This document shows, piece by piece, positions 39,251 to 46,224 of a stretch of DNA of 47,557 nucleotides. The stretch's first letter is position 1, and every line of letters starts with the position of its first letter. Source of the stretch: Flavobacteriaceae bacterium (GTDB lineage: Bacteria > Bacteroidota > Bacteroidia > Flavobacteriales > Flavobacteriaceae); assembly GCA_002706045.1 (NCBI GenBank), contig PAJL01000062.1, forward strand, positions 2,279-49,835, in the 5' to 3' direction. The translations under genes and the position numbers were made by a program. The notes under the pieces were generated by a model, which did no database searches, was not told the DNA's origin, and saw only the letters and a list, made by a program, of their open reading frames with translations.

Positions 39251-40072
39251 TTACTCTTCCCAAACAATACTTAATACTGAATTATATGTAGTTGAAATAA
39301 TGCAGTATTCAAAGAATTTAAAATCATTGTCATCTTCCGAATTCTTTAAGTCAAACCAAGTGGATTTCCAAATCTGTTGTTTAGATTGGTGCTTTGCGTA
39401 TATCTTGCCTTTTTCAAAAAATTCCATTGCAACAGAATCTTCAGGTGGTTCTAGCTTTGTTCTATCGATAATAAAATGAGGATAGCCTTTTGGCCATTTC
39501 CAATAACTTACGGTTTTATTGTGCGAGTGAAAAAGACAAATAGGATGGTCCCCAAGTTCAAAATATTTAAAAGCTATCGATGTTATACTTGTTTTGAAAA
39601 ATGTAGCCAAGTCCCTAAGTAATTGAGGCGAAAATTTTTTACCTTTTTGTTTTTCAAAGAACAAGGTACTTGGCATAAGCAGTTCAGAAGCAAATTGGTT
39701 GGCCTCGTATTCTATACGTCCACTTTTTGCCTGTTTTTCCTTATTGTTGAACCAAGAAGTTGTTGCTTCATTATCGTTATGGATGTCAATTCCTTTATGA
39801 AGTATAAAATGGCCAATTTCGTGGGCAAGCGTGAACCGCTTTTTTTGTTCAAATTCAATATTCTGATTTATTTCAATGATGGTATGTTTCTTACCGAATA
39901 TTATTCTTCCATCAGAATTTAGCAAAGGTTTTTCAATAACAGTTGCACCTAGACCACTTGCAAATAATTCCAAGGGGAAATCCAAAAGACTTTCAAAGCC
40001 ATTTTGGTGCAACAAATCCCTTGCTGCCGCAGAACCTTTATTATATCTATAATTCTTCATTATCCAATTCAT
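39251..40072 (-). CDS. ImmA/IrrE-family metallopeptidase
   Basis: A 273-residue zinc peptidase. The catalytic helix is H84-Glu-Ile-Gly-H88, and the downstream helix Arg-Ile-Glu-Tyr-Glu-Ala-Asn-Gln-Phe-Ala (E121/E123) supplies the third ligand, as in ImmA and IrrE. The last 110 residues form an extra domain typical of ImmA/IrrE proteins that may sense a signal. Such enzymes switch on mobile elements or stress genes by cleaving a repressor. Its start overlaps the unknown helical gene, and that gene overlaps the sigma-like gene, so the three are one unit. ATG at 40060 is an alternative start. Confidence 0.88.
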   Translation of the reverse strand: MNWIMKNYRYNKGSAAARDLLHQNGFESLLDFPLELFASGLGATVIEKPLLNSDGRIIFGKKHTIIEINQNIEFEQKKRFTLAHEIGHFILHKGIDIHNDNEATTSWFNNKEKQAKSGRIEYEANQFASELLMPSTLFFEKQKGKKFSPQLLRDLATFFKTSITSIAFKYFELGDHPICLFHSHNKTVSYWKWPKGYPHFIIDRTKLEPPEDSVAMEFFEKGKIYAKHQSKQQIWKSTWFDLKNSEDDNDFKFFEYCIISTTYNSVLSIVWEE

Positions 40073-40448
40073 CCATCAAGTCAACCAAATTTTTCCCTTT
40101 AATGATTTCTTTTATTTCATCAGAGGTTAGCTTATCTAGGTTTCTAAATTGCACCGACATTTGTTTAGTTTCTACTAAATTTATCAAAGTGGAAATAGGT
40201 TTCTCAATATTTTTATTGATTGCTTCTTGAAATTTCTCAACGATTTTATCAATTAATGCCTGATTACTATCTTGAGTAACCATAGCGGTTTGAGTAAATT
40301 TTAATCGTTTTAAAAAATTGGATATTTCAATGCTTTCATTGGCTACATCCACACCTTCTTCTTCTAAGGATTTTTTTATCAATTCAAGATCAGAATTGAG
40401 ATAAAATTCAGTTAATCCCTTATCTATTTTATTCTTTAAATTGCTCAT
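40047..40448 (-). CDS. Small helical protein between sigma-like and ImmA/IrrE genes, unknown
   Basis: A 133-residue acidic, mostly helical protein with no cysteine, signal peptide or membrane segment. It has a Leu-Glu-Leu-Ile-Lys-Lys-Ser-Leu-Glu-Glu-Glu-Gly block near 22-33 and an acidic end (Asp-Glu-Leu-Asp-Asn-Glu-Glu-Leu). It overlaps the sigma-like gene by four bases (ATGA) and the ImmA/IrrE gene by 26 bases, so its level is tied to both. By position it may be the protein cleaved by the peptidase, or an anti-sigma-like partner. This is inference; no family is recognised. Confidence 0.7.
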   Translation of the reverse strand: MSNLKNKIDKGLTEFYLNSDLELIKKSLEEEGVDVANESIEISNFLKRLKFTQTAMVTQDSNQALIDKIVEKFQEAINKNIEKPISTLINLVETKQMSVQFRNLDKLTSDEIKEIIKGKNLVDLMDELDNEEL

Positions 40449-41038
40449 TTTACCTGACTGTTTAGTTTCTTTTTTCTTCTTTCAAGCCTTTTAACGGCGT
40501 TGTAAACTTCGGTGCTATCTATTTCCAAGAAATCTGATATTTCACTTGGTTTATAGATGTCTTCGCACCAACATTCAAATATTAGCATCTCTAAGTCCGA
40601 TGCACCAGAGTCTTTAAGTAACGTAACATAGTCTTCCTTTAGTTTTTTATTATCAATTTCTTTAAATGATTGGTCGTTGTAGCCAACTTCTTCTAAGAAT
40701 ACTGGTATATCGAGGATATACGATTCTTCGTTTTCATTTTCTTCTTCGGGTGGCTTTCGTCTTTTTGCTTTTTCGTGATAAGAACTGATTTCACTTTTTA
40801 GAACCCCAAAAAGGAAGTTCTCAAAATCACATTTGTCTTTATCCCAATTCCTTATATCGGTAAGTGCTTTTTGGAAAACGTTAAAAACAAAATCCAACTT
40901 TTGTTGCCCCTCGTGATTGTCATTATAATTGCCAAGCCTTTTCTTGGTATAGGCTCTCATTCTTAAAACGAGGTGGCTTAATTGGTCATTAGTATATTTG
41001 CGAAATACATCGGCGACCTCTTTGCTCGATTTATCCAT
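40445..41038 (-). CDS. Sigma-70-like transcription factor
   Basis: A 197-residue protein resembling extracytoplasmic-function-size sigma factors. Residues about 45-95 look like region 2 (Phe-Val-Phe-Asn-Val-Phe-Gln-Lys-Ala then Asp-Phe-Glu-Asn-Phe-Leu-Phe-Gly-Val-Leu-Lys-Ser). Residues about 140-195 look like region 4 (Leu-Glu-Met-Leu-Ile-Phe-Glu-Cys-Trp then Ile-Ser-Asp-Phe-Leu-Glu-Ile-Asp-Ser-Thr-Glu-Val-Tyr-Asn-Ala-Val-Lys-Arg-Leu). The region 2 to 4 linker is rich in Glu. It starts 23 bases from a pair of concentric inverted repeats and is divergent from the ubiquitin-like cassette, which it may regulate. It heads an operon with an unknown protein and an ImmA/IrrE peptidase. Confidence 0.65.
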   Translation of the reverse strand: MDKSSKEVADVFRKYTNDQLSHLVLRMRAYTKKRLGNYNDNHEGQQKLDFVFNVFQKALTDIRNWDKDKCDFENFLFGVLKSEISSYHEKAKRRKPPEEENENEESYILDIPVFLEEVGYNDQSFKEIDNKKLKEDYVTLLKDSGASDLEMLIFECWCEDIYKPSEISDFLEIDSTEVYNAVKRLERRKKKLNSQVK

Positions 41039-41243: not shown

Positions 41244-41399
41244 ATGAATAGTATTAATTTCTCAAAAGGAGAGCTGAGCGTTTGTCGTAAAGGCAATTGT
41301 GTCAATGTACGAGGAAATATGGCAAAGGTCATAGTTTTTGGTATTGCAACGCTCGTTGTAGTCAAGGGCATAGCTGCATTACTGGAGCAATCCAATTAG
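41244..41399 (+). CDS. Small hydrophobic peptide at the head of the conjugation cassette
   Basis: A 51-residue protein too short for routine gene calling. Residues 1-28 are polar and basic with C14-Arg-Lys-Gly-Asn-C19. Residues 29-47 form one strongly hydrophobic helix interrupted by a lysine, and the tail is Glu-Gln-Ser-Asn. The ATG at 41244 follows the control region directly and the frame is followed at once by a strong hairpin. It may be a membrane peptide (effector, anchor) or the peptide modified by the downstream enzyme. It has no C-terminal glycine and is too small for a ubiquitin fold. Codon content and position argue for a real gene; function unknown. Confidence 0.6.
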   Translation: MNSINFSKGELSVCRKGNCVNVRGNMAKVIVFGIATLVVVKGIAALLEQSN

Positions 41400-41519: not shown

Positions 41520-42659
41520 ATGAGTAAGAAAATTATAAAGTACTATCCTGTCGGCAATGGGGATACTTCACTTTTCAAAACCAGTAACGCCAATATTATT
41601 ACAGATTGTAACATCCGTGAAGTAAAAGATGGAATCTATGATGTTAAGGAAGATCTTGTAAAAGAATTGGAAAAAAGAAATGATAGACCCTATACGGATT
41701 TATTTGTCCTGACCCACCACGACAATGACCATTGTTTAAACTTTGGAAAACACTTCCATACAGGAAAAATTAGTTCATACGATGACGATGATGAAAAAAT
41801 AATAATTGACGAGCTTTGGGTCAATGAATATATTTTAGGGGACGATAATATTTCTGATGATACTGATGCTGGCATCATACGCAAAGAAGTGAGACGCAGA
41901 AGAAATCTGTATAAAAACAATGATAGTGCTAAGAACGAAAGAGGAAATAGGCTGGTATTGATTGGGTACGACGACAATAATAATTTTACAAACGTACCAC
42001 AGCACATACCAGGACAAGTTGTGAATGAAATCAATGATACCACTCTCGACAAGTTTGAATTTTTCATACACGCACCTTTTAAAGCAGATGTGATTGACTG
42101 TAATGCGAATGAGGATAGAAACATGTCTAGTATCGTTTATCAAGCTAGATTCTACAAAAGCTATGGAAGTGACTTTTCCTGTAGGGTTCTACACGGTGGA
42201 GATGCAGACCACTATCGATGGGCAAAGATTAAGGAAAAATCAGAAAAGAATGAGAATGAAGATGCTTTAGAATGGGATATTTTTCAAACCCCTCACCATT
42301 GCTCTTGGACTTTTTTCAACGATACGCCATATAAAGATGACGACAAGAATATTGATAACTCTGAACCGAAACAAACCTCAATTGATATTCTAAACTATAA
42401 GCTTACTGGAGCAAAAGTTGTGGCCACCTCTAAGAAAATTGTAGACGATAAAGATAATCCACCTCATTATCCAGCAAGAACAGAATATACCAATGTTGTT
42501 GGTAGCAGCAACTTTAAAAACACGCAAAAGTTTTATGACGATTTTAAAAAGCCAATTGTTTTCGAAATAGATGATTATGGTGCTACCTTGATTAAAGCAA
42601 CTGCGGCCGCAATTAGCTCAGGCTTAAGTAAACCATCAAGAGCAGGAAGAGCAGGATAA
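41520..42659 (+). CDS. ComEC-like metallo-beta-lactamase-fold hydrolase with a Gly-ended tail
   Basis: A 379-residue cytoplasmic protein of the MBL fold. The metal motif Thr-H66-His-D68-Asn-D70-H71 is the HxDxDH form seen in ComEC/Rec2-related hydrolases. A Leu-His-Gly-Gly-Asp-Ala-Asp strand and a Pro-His-His-Cys-Ser motif (ComEC has Pro-His-His-Gly-Ser) follow. The large charged insert about 80-140 is unusual. The C-terminus reads Ser-Lys-Pro-Ser-Arg-Ala-Gly-Arg-Ala-Gly, encoded by a tandem copy of AGAGCAGGA (42639-42656). The stop is two bases before the E2-E1-JAB gene. MBL proteins of this type recur beside prokaryotic E1/E2 fusions. Its tail could be the site that is activated by the E1 domain. 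Confidence 0.88.
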   Translation: MSKKIIKYYPVGNGDTSLFKTSNANIITDCNIREVKDGIYDVKEDLVKELEKRNDRPYTDLFVLTHHDNDHCLNFGKHFHTGKISSYDDDDEKIIIDELWVNEYILGDDNISDDTDAGIIRKEVRRRRNLYKNNDSAKNERGNRLVLIGYDDNNNFTNVPQHIPGQVVNEINDTTLDKFEFFIHAPFKADVIDCNANEDRNMSSIVYQARFYKSYGSDFSCRVLHGGDADHYRWAKIKEKSEKNENEDALEWDIFQTPHHCSWTFFNDTPYKDDDKNIDNSEPKQTSIDILNYKLTGAKVVATSKKIVDDKDNPPHYPARTEYTNVVGSSNFKNTQKFYDDFKKPIVFEIDDYGATLIKATAAAISSGLSKPSRAGRAG

Positions 42660-42661
42660 AT

Positions 42662-44842
42662 ATGGAGCAAGATTACGTATCACCAACGAATGATAAAGTA
42701 AAGATTGAAGAGCTAAAGAATGATAGATCCAAACAAATTCTCTCTTCAATCGATGCTTTTGGCGGAACTGTTATTCTATTAAAGGTTTTACACGGTAAGC
42801 ATGAAGATGAATTTCTATTTCTCAAATTTCTTCCCGACATACCCAACAACCCTATTAATGATATTCGGCAAGAAGAAATAATCGTCATAATTACCTCGCA
42901 GGATAATATTTCATTACCCAAGGTTTTCGCTTGTAGAGATGATTTTCCTTTGGGATTACCACATACTAATGTAACTAAGGATGAAAGGCCTGTCAGCCTC
43001 TGTATTTTTGAAGAGAATTTTGAAGAATTGAAACATAAATGGTCTGGCTCTTATTTTTTACAAGCAATCAAGAGCTGGCTTGAACTCACGGCTAGAGACG
43101 AGTTACACGAAGAAAATCAGCCTTTGGAACCTTTTGTTATGGGAAGTAACGGTATTATCGTTAACCCTGATAACCATTACATCAAGAAGTTACCCAATGG
43201 CTTTTATAAAACGACAGATAGTACACTCGGTACACCAATCCATAAGTTATTTATTGCTACATGTCCCGTAGATAATGGTGTTGTACACCAAAGAGTTGAT
43301 AATCTATATGCTCTGAACGAGCTTTTCAAATCGAAGAATATTGACTTACTTAAACTATTAAAACCAAAAATCACAAAATTAGTCGATGATGGTTTATCCC
43401 ATAGAATAGATGGAGATTACTGGAAAGGGCTGATTTTTTTAATTGTTGAAATTCCCATTCTAAGGGATTCTAAAAATTCAGAACCCACATTAGCCGGATT
43501 TAAAATCAACGCAACCTTAGGCGAGTTGTCAAGTATGTTTGGAAGAGCGATTATTGGGCTTGATGAATTGATTGCAGTAAAAGAAAATCTATCTGAAGAT
43601 AAATTGACCCCAATCGATGTAGAAATACTAAGCCCGCATTTAAGTTTGAATAAAATTTCAGCACAAACCTATAGCGGTATTGATAGAAAATACTCAGATT
43701 CTAAATTTACATTAATAGGTCTTGGTGCTATAGGTTCTCAATTTTTTATGAACCTTGCTAGAAGTGGTTTTGGTATTTGGAATCTTGTTGACAAGGATAT
43801 TATGCTACCACATAATTTTATAAGACACGCTTCAACCGATATTGAAAATCACATAGCAAAAAACAAAGCAGTAGCTATTTCCAAACAAGCGAATGACCTA
43901 TTGAATGATTCGGATTTTTCTAAACCATTTGCTACTAGTGTTTATGATGTCGATAAGTCAGTTATGGAAGGTTCAGATATCATTTTAGACATGTCCACCT
44001 CAATTGGAGTCGAAAGATATTTGGCTAATGAAATCAAAAATGTAAGAAAAGTATCAGCTTTTCTAAATCCGATGGGAACTGATTTTGTGATGCTAACAGA
44101 AGACGTTGAAAGTTATTACCCATTGGATATTTTAGAAATTCAATATTATAAAGAGCTATTAACTAATCCTGAATTATCCAATCATTTAGATTATGAACAG
44201 GATAGCAAAATACGATATGCAAGAGGATGTAGAGATATTACGTCAAAAATTCCTCAAGAAAATCTATCCATTTTTTCTGGTGTTGCCTCAAAGATATTCA
44301 AGCAAAATTTGAAAAATAATAATGCAGGATTGCAAATATGGAGGACTAATAAATCGCAAAACATAGTTCACCATGGTTTTGAAATTGATGATTGGCAGGA
44401 AAAATCAATTTCAGGTTGGACTATTTATATAAATGAAAATAATTTTCTTGATACGGTATCCAAATTTAGGGAAGACAAATTGCCAAATGAAACTGGCGGG
44501 ATTTTGATTGGGGCAATCGATAATTACTACAAGAAAATTTATATAGTTCATACCATTTTGGCCCCAGAAGATAGTATTGAGAGACCAACCCTGTTCATTA
44601 GAGGTATAAAAGATGTAAGTAAAAAATTGAGCCAAATAAGCGAGATTACAAACAACAATCTAAAATATTTGGGCGAATGGCACAGCCACCCTAGAAACTG
44701 TGGATTAAGTATGAGTGGAGAAGATAAAATTCAGTTCGCTGAACTATTAAGTGAAGCAAAACTAAATGGCCAACCAGCAATTATGCTTATTTTAGGCGAT
44801 GATAATAAATTTAAAATCCATTTAGATAACTGTGAACTTTAA
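42662..44842 (+). CDS. E2-E1-JAB triple-fusion ubiquitin-like conjugation enzyme
   Basis: A 726-residue protein with three domains. The E2-like fold (about 10-165) has the catalytic C114 in Pro-Val-Ser-Leu-Cys, followed by a Trp-rich helix. After a long middle segment, the E1 ThiF-like domain (about 345-560) has the nucleotide loop G353-Leu-G355-Ala-Ile-G358, D377 in Val-Asp-Lys-Asp and Asn-Phe-Ile-Arg-His at 385-389; C523 in Arg-Gly-Cys-Arg-Asp is a candidate thioester cysteine. The JAB/JAMM peptidase (about 585-726) has E610 and H674-Ser-H676-Pro then S685-x-x-D688, a full zinc site. So one chain can activate, transfer and remove a modifier. It overlaps the membrane-protein gene by 11 bases. 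CBASS Cap2 has E2-E1 only and needs separate Cap3. Confidence 0.93.
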   Translation: MEQDYVSPTNDKVKIEELKNDRSKQILSSIDAFGGTVILLKVLHGKHEDEFLFLKFLPDIPNNPINDIRQEEIIVIITSQDNISLPKVFACRDDFPLGLPHTNVTKDERPVSLCIFEENFEELKHKWSGSYFLQAIKSWLELTARDELHEENQPLEPFVMGSNGIIVNPDNHYIKKLPNGFYKTTDSTLGTPIHKLFIATCPVDNGVVHQRVDNLYALNELFKSKNIDLLKLLKPKITKLVDDGLSHRIDGDYWKGLIFLIVEIPILRDSKNSEPTLAGFKINATLGELSSMFGRAIIGLDELIAVKENLSEDKLTPIDVEILSPHLSLNKISAQTYSGIDRKYSDSKFTLIGLGAIGSQFFMNLARSGFGIWNLVDKDIMLPHNFIRHASTDIENHIAKNKAVAISKQANDLLNDSDFSKPFATSVYDVDKSVMEGSDIILDMSTSIGVERYLANEIKNVRKVSAFLNPMGTDFVMLTEDVESYYPLDILEIQYYKELLTNPELSNHLDYEQDSKIRYARGCRDITSKIPQENLSIFSGVASKIFKQNLKNNNAGLQIWRTNKSQNIVHHGFEIDDWQEKSISGWTIYINENNFLDTVSKFREDKLPNETGGILIGAIDNYYKKIYIVHTILAPEDSIERPTLFIRGIKDVSKKLSQISEITNNNLKYLGEWHSHPRNCGLSMSGEDKIQFAELLSEAKLNGQPAIMLILGDDNKFKIHLDNCEL

Positions 44843-45431
44843 GGCTTACGATATAATTTCCAAATTACTACCAGGATATGCACTAGTATATTCCTTGATT
44901 TTTTTATATGCAGACCATACTGTTTATTTTAAGGCAGACTTCATTCTACCAATAACAGTTATAGCCTATTTTCTAGGCTATATTCTTGACACTTTTAGTA
45001 GCTGGCTTGAAGACATTTTTTATTTTACTTGGAAAGGTAAGCCATCTACAAGGTTGCTGTCCAAACGCAAAGGTATCTGGAAGATTCCACCGCCTCATTT
45101 TTTAAAAAAAATGAAAAAGGACACTATAAAAATATTGGACAATGAGGTTTCTGACGATGAACTCTTCAGATTTATACAATCATCTGCTTACGCCATAAAC
45201 AAAGATAGATTAAGTGATTTTTTACAAAATTTTATTTTTGCTCGTGTTCTTTTGACTCTTAGTATCTTTTTAACGGTGCTGTTCGGAATTAAATATTATT
45301 GTTATTGGCAATTCTTTTCTATCTCGCTTCCAATTCTTTTCGTTTGTTGGTATAGGGCGAAACAAAGAGCTTATTATTACGCAGTAGAAGTATTAAGAAT
45401 ATATCATTCTTCTAATTTAAAAAACAAATAG
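44832..45431 (+). CDS. Membrane protein of the conjugation cassette, unknown
   Basis: A 199-residue integral membrane protein. Hydrophobic helices lie at about 13-26, 34-55 (start of cassette) and 135-153, 157-172 (end). Between them is a basic, soluble loop of about 75 residues with Lys-Lys-Met-Lys-Lys-Asp and a Phe-Ile-Gln-Ser-Ser-Ala-Tyr-Ala-Ile motif. The start is GTG at 44832, inside the end of the triple-fusion gene, so translation is coupled. There is no ATG in frame near. No family recognised. By position it may be the effector that damages the membrane or an anchor for the conjugation enzyme. Confidence 0.72.
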   Translation: MNFKAYDIISKLLPGYALVYSLIFLYADHTVYFKADFILPITVIAYFLGYILDTFSSWLEDIFYFTWKGKPSTRLLSKRKGIWKIPPPHFLKKMKKDTIKILDNEVSDDELFRFIQSSAYAINKDRLSDFLQNFIFARVLLTLSIFLTVLFGIKYYCYWQFFSISLPILFVCWYRAKQRAYYYAVEVLRIYHSSNLKNK

Positions 45432-45552: not shown

Positions 45553-46224
45553 TCAAATATTTAAATAATTATACAGCCCCATTAAAATAGCCAAAGCCAT
45601 AGCCCTTATATTTTTTGGCTTTAAAAAATAATTCGCTTCATCGGTGTTGGTAATAAAGCCCATTTCAATGAGTATTGAAGGGCGATACGTAGTATTCTCA
45701 CGAAGCACTTGAAAATTCGCAAATTGCACACCTCGTTTTTTAAAACCCAATTTTAGAGTGCTTTCTTCTAAAATGGACAAGCCCATTCCAATTGATTCTT
45801 TTAAGTTTTCTTCATTACTGTTGGTGCGATGCACGTAAATATCCATTCCTTTTGAGGAAGTATATGAAGCATTACAATGTAACGATACATACACGTCTGC
45901 ATTCAAGCTTTTAGCCAATCGGCTTCTATCCGATAAAGAAATCAAGGTATCATTATATCTGGTCAAGTACACATCAAACCTATCATTTAAGAGAGTTTTA
46001 TTTAACCATAAAATTTCTTTGGCAATACCTAATGTGACATCCTTTTCTTGAATATCGTTTACACCAATTGCACCAGTATCATTTCCACCGTGCCCAGAGT
46101 CTATTACAATCACTTTTTGTTGCCCGAAAATAACACAGAATTGTAGCATCAAAATCACAAAACTGACGTTTTTGGGCGTTATCCACTTCCAAAATTTTAG
46201 AGTTATCAACATAGACTTATCCAA
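45553..46224 (-). CDS. N-acetylmuramoyl-L-alanine amidase (Amidase_3)
   Basis: A 223-residue exported peptidoglycan amidase. A hydrophobic signal or anchor spans about 18-34. The zinc site is Asp-Ser-Gly-His-Gly-Gly-Asn-Asp, Gln-Glu-Lys (glutamate), Ser-Leu-His-Cys-Asn-Ala (histidine), and a catalytic glutamate near the end in Ile-Glu-Met-Gly-Phe. It should cut the murein to admit the conjugation pore. It is divergent from the tra operon. A second in-frame ATG six codons further downstream (46209) is possible. The 121 bases between this gene's end and the cassette hold no gene. Confidence 0.9.
   Translation of the reverse strand: MDKSMLITLKFWKWITPKNVSFVILMLQFCVIFGQQKVIVIDSGHGGNDTGAIGVNDIQEKDVTLGIAKEILWLNKTLLNDRFDVYLTRYNDTLISLSDRSRLAKSLNADVYVSLHCNASYTSSKGMDIYVHRTNSNEENLKESIGMGLSILEESTLKLGFKKRGVQFANFQVLRENTTYRPSILIEMGFITNTDEANYFLKPKNIRAMALAILMGLYNYLNI

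Follow-up and report, generated by a model that had tools for sequence, protein, structure and literature searches.

A conserved glycine near the C terminus suggests that the 6A-MBL hydrolase is itself the substrate of its E2-E1-JAB partner

A 47,557-nucleotide stretch of contig PAJL01000062.1 (positions 2,279 to 49,835; Flavobacteriaceae bacterium assembly GCA_002706045.1; this whole stretch is termed the window herein, and coordinates refer to it) carries on its forward strand an operon in which the gene of a metallo-β-lactamase (MBL)-fold hydrolase (41520..42659; ATG start, open reading frame (ORF) of 379 amino acids) is followed, after 2 bases, by the gene of a 726-amino-acid E2-E1-JAB fusion protein (42662..44842; Cap2 and Cap3 in a single chain). 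We propose that the hydrolase is itself the substrate of its neighbor, as the nucleotidyltransferase (CD-NTase) is in the type II cyclic oligonucleotide-based antiphage signaling system (CBASS); as the best explanation of the whole, we consider this likely. Its C-terminal tail is probably what the E1 domain acts upon, with the MBL in the CD-NTase's place. The preliminary description of the window had singled out the hydrolase as the most obvious E1 substrate, a suggestion now supported by a tail motif present in 58 of 70 representatives and in none of 20 control tails, by the preserved E2 and E1 cysteines and JAB site of the partner, and by Cap2 as its closest solved relative.

The operon is of a known kind that has been in print since 2006: row 6a of Table 1 in Iyer et al. 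(PMC1779556) lists the same two-gene core, an MBL with an E2-E1-JAB triple-module protein, and the part of the text that deals with this row proposes no substrate. The window pair is a member of the 6A-MBL system, with the same two-gene core and scores far above both curated NCBIfam cut-offs (351.4 bits against NF058524, "6A-MBL," cut-off 220, for the MBL; 535 bits against NF058523, cut-off 320, for the fusion protein, which has the Pfam domains Prok-E2_A, ThiF, and Prok-JAB). The NF058524 model stops at residue 354 of the window MBL, before the tail. No paper was found in a literature search on the name "6A-MBL," and the system is called anti-phage by NCBIfam naming alone. The literature searched, which left out key papers, yielded no mention of the substrate assignment, of a precursor form, or of E2-only loss.

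The MBL of the window ends in SKPSRAGRAG (ORF end AAAISSGLSKPSRAGRAG). The earlier statement that Pro-Ser-Arg-Ala-Gly-Arg-Ala-Gly arises from a nine-base repeat was borne out: AGAGCAGGA stands twice, head to tail, at 42639..42656 on the forward strand, forming the last 18 coding bases (RAG-RAG, with Gly376 and Gly379), with the stop codon TAA directly behind (42657-42659). No other exact 9-base tandem repeat occurs in the window (units of 1 to 3 bases left out); since first-order Markov sequences contained a mean of 0.34 such repeats, a single one is unsurprising, and the feature above chance is the protein tail, not the 9-base repeat alone. The identical PSRAGRAG occurs in four further loci of the window's cluster at 80% identity (L002, L041, L042, and L046; L002 and L042 apparently represent one genome), and the last eight codons in this cluster show synonymous changes only (AGA/AGG, GCA/GCG/GCT, and CCA/CCT), with no amino acid change. 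Relatives L043 and L044 have one SRAG copy only, which suggests that the second copy arose by a duplication specific to the lineage; the repeat is therefore a tail feature within the window's cluster and not of the family at large, and we rejected it as a general family feature. In the AlphaFold model of the MBL (predicted local distance difference test score [pLDDT], 92.9), the tail (residues 361 to 379; 42600..42656, forward strand) is predicted to be mostly disordered, with pLDDT below 50 at residues 361 to 369 and 374 to 379.

Homologues were collected from an initial set of 12 MBLs (from the window, one relative, and plasmids), a scan of 84,980 genomes (404 relatives, of which 79 loci were kept), viral contigs (7 loci), and further plasmid loci and extra genomes; the phage collection contained no MBL match. 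From 140 loci, 109 MBL ORFs were kept (with a stop, above 60 bits, and extending into the C-terminal half), which formed 67 clusters at 80% identity. Four of these lie beside a stand-alone E2-like protein (termed E2-only here), leaving 63 representatives beside the fusion, and seven later loci (L151 to L156 and L163) raised the number to 70; L045 and L112 were counted though the contig ends within their partner gene. The broken L111 was dropped; its MBL frame lies in three pieces on a complete Niabella chromosome and reflects either a decayed gene or sequencing errors.

The strict motif (RAG, YG, or HG within the final 10 residues) was present in 58 of the 70 representatives. Among the first 63, it was found in 53, compared with a mean of 3.1 after shuffling of the last 30 residues (0 of 2,000 shuffles reached 53) and with 0 to 4 of 63 in seven segments further upstream in the same proteins. 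Five of the seven later loci were strict cases, and the remaining two end in ISQG and GFGSYNE. A wide X-Gly pattern fits 70/70, this pattern having been widened post hoc (N was added after the data on L051 had been seen). The negative control consisted of 20 different tails from further MBL ORFs of weak relationship, located in the same loci or genomes; none had the strict motif and one had the wide pattern (Fisher P = 4e-12 for the strict motif, kinship not modelled). The Gly codons are mixed (GGC 25, GGT 16, GGA 14, and GGG 7 of 62).

The Gly tail is kept in loci labelled Bacteroidota, Pseudomonadota, Thermodesulfobacteriota, Bacillota, Chloroflexota, Actinomycetota, Cyanobacteriota, and Methanobacteriota. 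RAG tails occur in Pseudomonadota, Nostoc, and many Bacteroidota, P-x-TYG tails in archaeal, Chloroflexota, Bacillota, and Bacteroidota loci, and HG tails mostly in proteobacterial loci; QG tails belong mainly to one Bacteroidota clade and GFG tails to a separate clade. The preliminary description had named lack of tail conservation among homologues as a refutation; the tail proved to be conserved. The Gly need not be the very last residue: it stands there in only 30/70 representatives (27/63 of the first set), and the residues behind it in the others suggest JAB trimming. Most tails that do not end in Gly carry 1 to 6 variable residues past the conserved one (e.g., PRAGR, PRAGLWMKSK, and SKYGNGEV). 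Both forms occur within one 80% cluster (L052 ends in STYG and L055 in STYGNGEV), and extensions are also found without gene overlap (L039, L127, L132, and L140, with gaps of 11 to 68 bases). Since an E1 requires a free C-terminal carboxylate, extended tails would need trimming, for which the fused JAB domain would be the obvious candidate.

The catalytic residues of the fusion protein are preserved: E2 Cys114, E1 Cys523, and the nucleotide-loop residues Gly353, Gly355, and Gly358 are kept in 61/61 full-length partners, as are the JAB residues E610, H674, H676, S685, and D688, except for H676 (60/61). The AlphaFold model of the fusion (pLDDT, 90.6) has as its top fold match the Cap2-CdnD02 structure 7to3 (E value, 3.9e-23), far stronger than the match to BubCD (9ea4; E value, 1.8e-8); its top sequence-profile match is also Cap2, and its closest solved relatives are Cap2 structures with CdnD02 or its C terminus. 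The fusion ORF overlaps or closely trails the MBL ORF in 103 of the 109 cases, a count that is silent on MBL-less fusions, the loci having been found by MBL.

The E2-only loci (L047, L048, L049, and L068) serve as a natural control. In place of the fusion, they encode a stand-alone E2-like protein whose cysteine motif is LCL (L047, 7169-7834; L048, 7202-7849; L068, 7172-7816), and E1 and JAB were not found in the locus. The E2-like proteins comprise 214 to 221 amino acids in L047, L048, and L068 (the latter two with a SEC-C match) and 145 amino acids in L049. For UQ_con, Pfam yielded nothing beyond a weak hit (L068; E value, 0.085), so that the label "E2-like" rests mainly on alignment. Three of the four MBLs are without the motif (tails KPWCNTDD, SGNWCKS, and KQPHCTND), which links the motif, in these few cases, to the presence of E1 and JAB. 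On the tree, the E2-only label requires three changes, at least two of them forced by well-supported branches, and L068 lies inside a clade of intact fusions with QG tails. The pattern resembles the one published for CBASS, where, in the passages of Jenson et al. on cGAS tails (PMC10097602), the last Gly/Ala is conserved in 1,583 cGAS sequences whose operons have complete Cap2 and Cap3, and not where Cap2 and Cap3, or the E2 domain, are missing; the missing domains differ, however (E1 and JAB here, E2 in CBASS), and the numbers are small. Searching more genomes added no further E2-only relatives, and a plasmid search with the E2-only protein returned 12 records, including Haliscomenobacter, Runella, and Vibrio.

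From this material we infer adenylation, conjugation, and trimming as follows. The disordered tail would present its C-terminal Gly to the E1 domain, which would adenylate it and pass the MBL via E1 Cys523 and E2 Cys114 to an amine on a target. The JAB domain would take off conjugates and, where residues trail the Gly, would first trim the tail, as deubiquitinases process ubiquitin-like precursors. Conjugation may thereby switch or localize the hydrolase, and the third gene would encode a swappable membrane effector executing the response.

The many tails that extend 1 to 6 residues past the Gly would also suit a cleavage site, so that the JAB domain alone might recognize the tail, with proteolysis at the Gly activating or releasing the MBL and E2-E1 acting on something else. 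The joint absence of E1 and JAB from the E2-only loci fits this explanation, and related defense MBLs are described, in the relevant parts of one report (PMC12799240), as DNases and as proenzymes activated by proteolysis. We nevertheless judge it unlikely: tails that end exactly in Gly leave nothing to cleave, the E1 and E2 cysteines are invariant in 61/61 partners, and the operon showed no gene for another substrate. In a separate alternative, E2-E1 would conjugate a ubiquitin-like protein encoded elsewhere in the genome, the MBL being only an effector; Bil systems use the ubiquitin-like BilA according to the portion of a review devoted to them. The preliminary description had seen no ubiquitin-like gene in the locus, and this stands: domain-library searches revealed none among the three operon genes, where we rejected this candidate, and no ThiS or MoaD above the Pfam cut-off was found in the source assembly, which is 73.55% complete, so that a gene could be missing. 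Given this result, the close coupling of fusion and MBL ORFs in loci found by MBL, and the E1-type Gly that the MBL itself bears, we regard a distant modifier as very improbable.

The glycine might, on the other hand, be a by-product of translation signals, either a Shine-Dalgarno-like GGA or the overlapping ATG of the next gene. The sequence xAT-GGx encodes YG, HG, or NG and at the same time contains a +1-frame ATG; among the 70 representatives, 26 (27 with L097; the overlap script picked an earlier AG for L033 and L097) have YG, HG, or NG codons that coincide with a possible ATG of the fusion gene, and the AGAGCAGGA tail of the window sits just before the next gene. The window, however, is among the 43 to 44 of 70 without such an overlap, and the use of all four Gly codons speaks against a ribosome-binding site. 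An overlapping ATG is followed by the base G in 30/33 cases versus 10/31 at nonoverlapping starts (P = 1e-6; 68 items without L045 and L112, of which 64 have an ATG), as expected under selection for Gly, so that the overlap does not explain the Gly itself. Neither the synonymous changes in the window's tail family nor the residues before the Y/A-G are accounted for. As a full explanation, a by-product was therefore rejected; we find it scarcely credible.

Several points weigh against the hydrolase as E1 substrate. Where an ATG overlaps, the overlap may force part of the motif, shaping the residue before the Gly. The shuffles and Fisher tests ignore kinship, and the representatives are related. 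The partner is broken in L113 and L126 and cut by the contig in L051, L045, and L112, and a distant MBL excluded from the set (L157; 91 bits) ends in GSEYGR with 258 bases left on the contig, no downstream room to show a partner. The E2-only control comprises four loci only, one of which (L049) ends in RFYGEE; its three changes could also be one gain and two losses, and since E1 and JAB are absent together, recognition by E1 and by JAB is not separable there. Finally, a membrane effector beside the MBL is not obviously needed if the MBL is a nuclease.

With type II CBASS, the operon shares a Cap2-like E2-E1, a JAB peptidase, a Gly-ended partner enzyme that is not ubiquitin-like, an effector that attacks membranes, for instance a phospholipase (CapV), and CapP/CapH or WYL regulators. 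It differs in that an MBL replaces the CD-NTase, of which no match was found among the three operon genes, and in that JAB is fused to E1. The passages on conjugation in Jenson et al. (PMC10097602) describe a thioester between Cap2 and the C-terminal Gly of cGAS, whose conserved G/A is the last residue; the partner enzyme of 6A-MBL likewise has a conserved C-terminal Gly, in many homologues with trailing residues. Lacking a cyclase, the operon would resemble CBASS conjugation in its working, yet it is not CBASS. Bil and Bub systems similarly use E1, E2, and JAB for protein conjugation, and BilA is processed by BilC according to the review section cited above, whereas a ubiquitin-like gene was not found among the three genes of this operon. 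Defense MBL nucleases (HamM, AVAST, Lamassu, and DRT) share the ComEC-like MBL fold; their partner is a trypsin-like protease in the parts of the report that treat it (PMC12799240), and none was found adjoining the MBL here, the next gene encoding E2-E1-JAB.

E1 and E2 enzymes are usually discussed for small ubiquitin-like modifiers, with the CBASS cyclase as the exception in the pertinent part of a review (PMC12355090). If our proposal is true, the Gly tail of another, unrelated family of enzymes would suggest the attachment of whole enzymes as a general strategy of bacterial E2-E1-JAB modules, and a substrate would be named for a system whose operon was published in 2006. The precursor-like tails and E2-only relatives open the way to simple, decisive tests.

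The best fold and profile match of the MBL is the ComEC MBL domain (fold 9ic4). From the MBL fold, we take the metal ligands to be H66, D68, D70, H71, D228, and H259; H66, D70, H71, D228, and H259 are present in 64/64 aligned MBLs, of which 56 have D and 8 have H at position 68. Given the ComEC-like fold and the intact metal site, the protein probably hydrolyzes nucleic acid or a nucleotide and is possibly a nuclease; weak PADLOC matches were to RTasMBL, LmuA, and Avs1a. The third gene (44832..45431, forward strand; GTG start overlapping the fusion gene) encodes a membrane protein, the proposed effector, from one of six membrane-protein families at this position. Across 97 full-fusion loci and the window, these families account for 45 third ORFs and patatins for 13, with 27 loci having none and 13 other ORFs, two of them MBLs (crude finder, counts not dereplicated). 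In L158, the locus of a relative whose MBL is 89% identical, regulators and core are the same but are followed by an unrelated membrane protein and then an extra MBL, so that the effector is exchangeable at a fixed place.

More tentatively, and as a possibility rather than an expectation, 6A-MBL may be a second "conjugated enzyme" immune system, next to type II CBASS, with an anti-phage role. A whole metallo-hydrolase, in many lineages produced as a precursor that the fused JAB domain matures at a conserved internal Gly, would be joined to a target and thereby arm a swappable membrane effector. The hydrolase would replace the cyclase and might make or remove a signal, and the E2-only form would have dropped both activation and Gly.

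Upstream of the operon, the reverse strand encodes a CapP-like IrrE/ImmA peptidase regulator (39251..40072; PADLOC capP, 213.6 bits; Pfam Peptidase_M78), a CapH-like regulator with a weak match (40047..40448; PADLOC capH, 24.5 bits), and a sigma-70-like protein divergent from the operon (40445..41038; NCBIfam sigma70-ECF, 24.6 bits, under its 42.9 cut-off). Among 24 plasmid loci, a WYL regulator is annotated upstream in 11 and ImmA/IrrE with a helix-turn-helix in 2. Between the regulators and the MBL gene lies a 51-amino-acid ORF with a hydrophobic segment (41244..41399, forward strand), with 61 to 84% identity in four related genomes (L041; L043; L002/L042/L158, apparently one genome; and L046) and 36% identity over 44 amino acids in L064; it ends in EQSN without Gly and was rejected as a hidden modifier. 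An N-acetylmuramoyl-L-alanine amidase gene (45553-46224, reverse strand; library match) separates the defense operon from transfer genes, and a similar-looking ORF occupies this position in L158. The window carries an RteC match and a TraG match (below cut-off, ORF cut by the window end), and the carrier of the operon thus looks like a conjugative element. In seven Bacteroidales loci (L075, L077, L078, L082, L083, L091, and L096), another MBL ORF of weak relationship is located about 0.6 to 1.4 kb upstream of the operon MBL, and the two MBL ORFs of L078 have between them a homologue of the third gene of the window.
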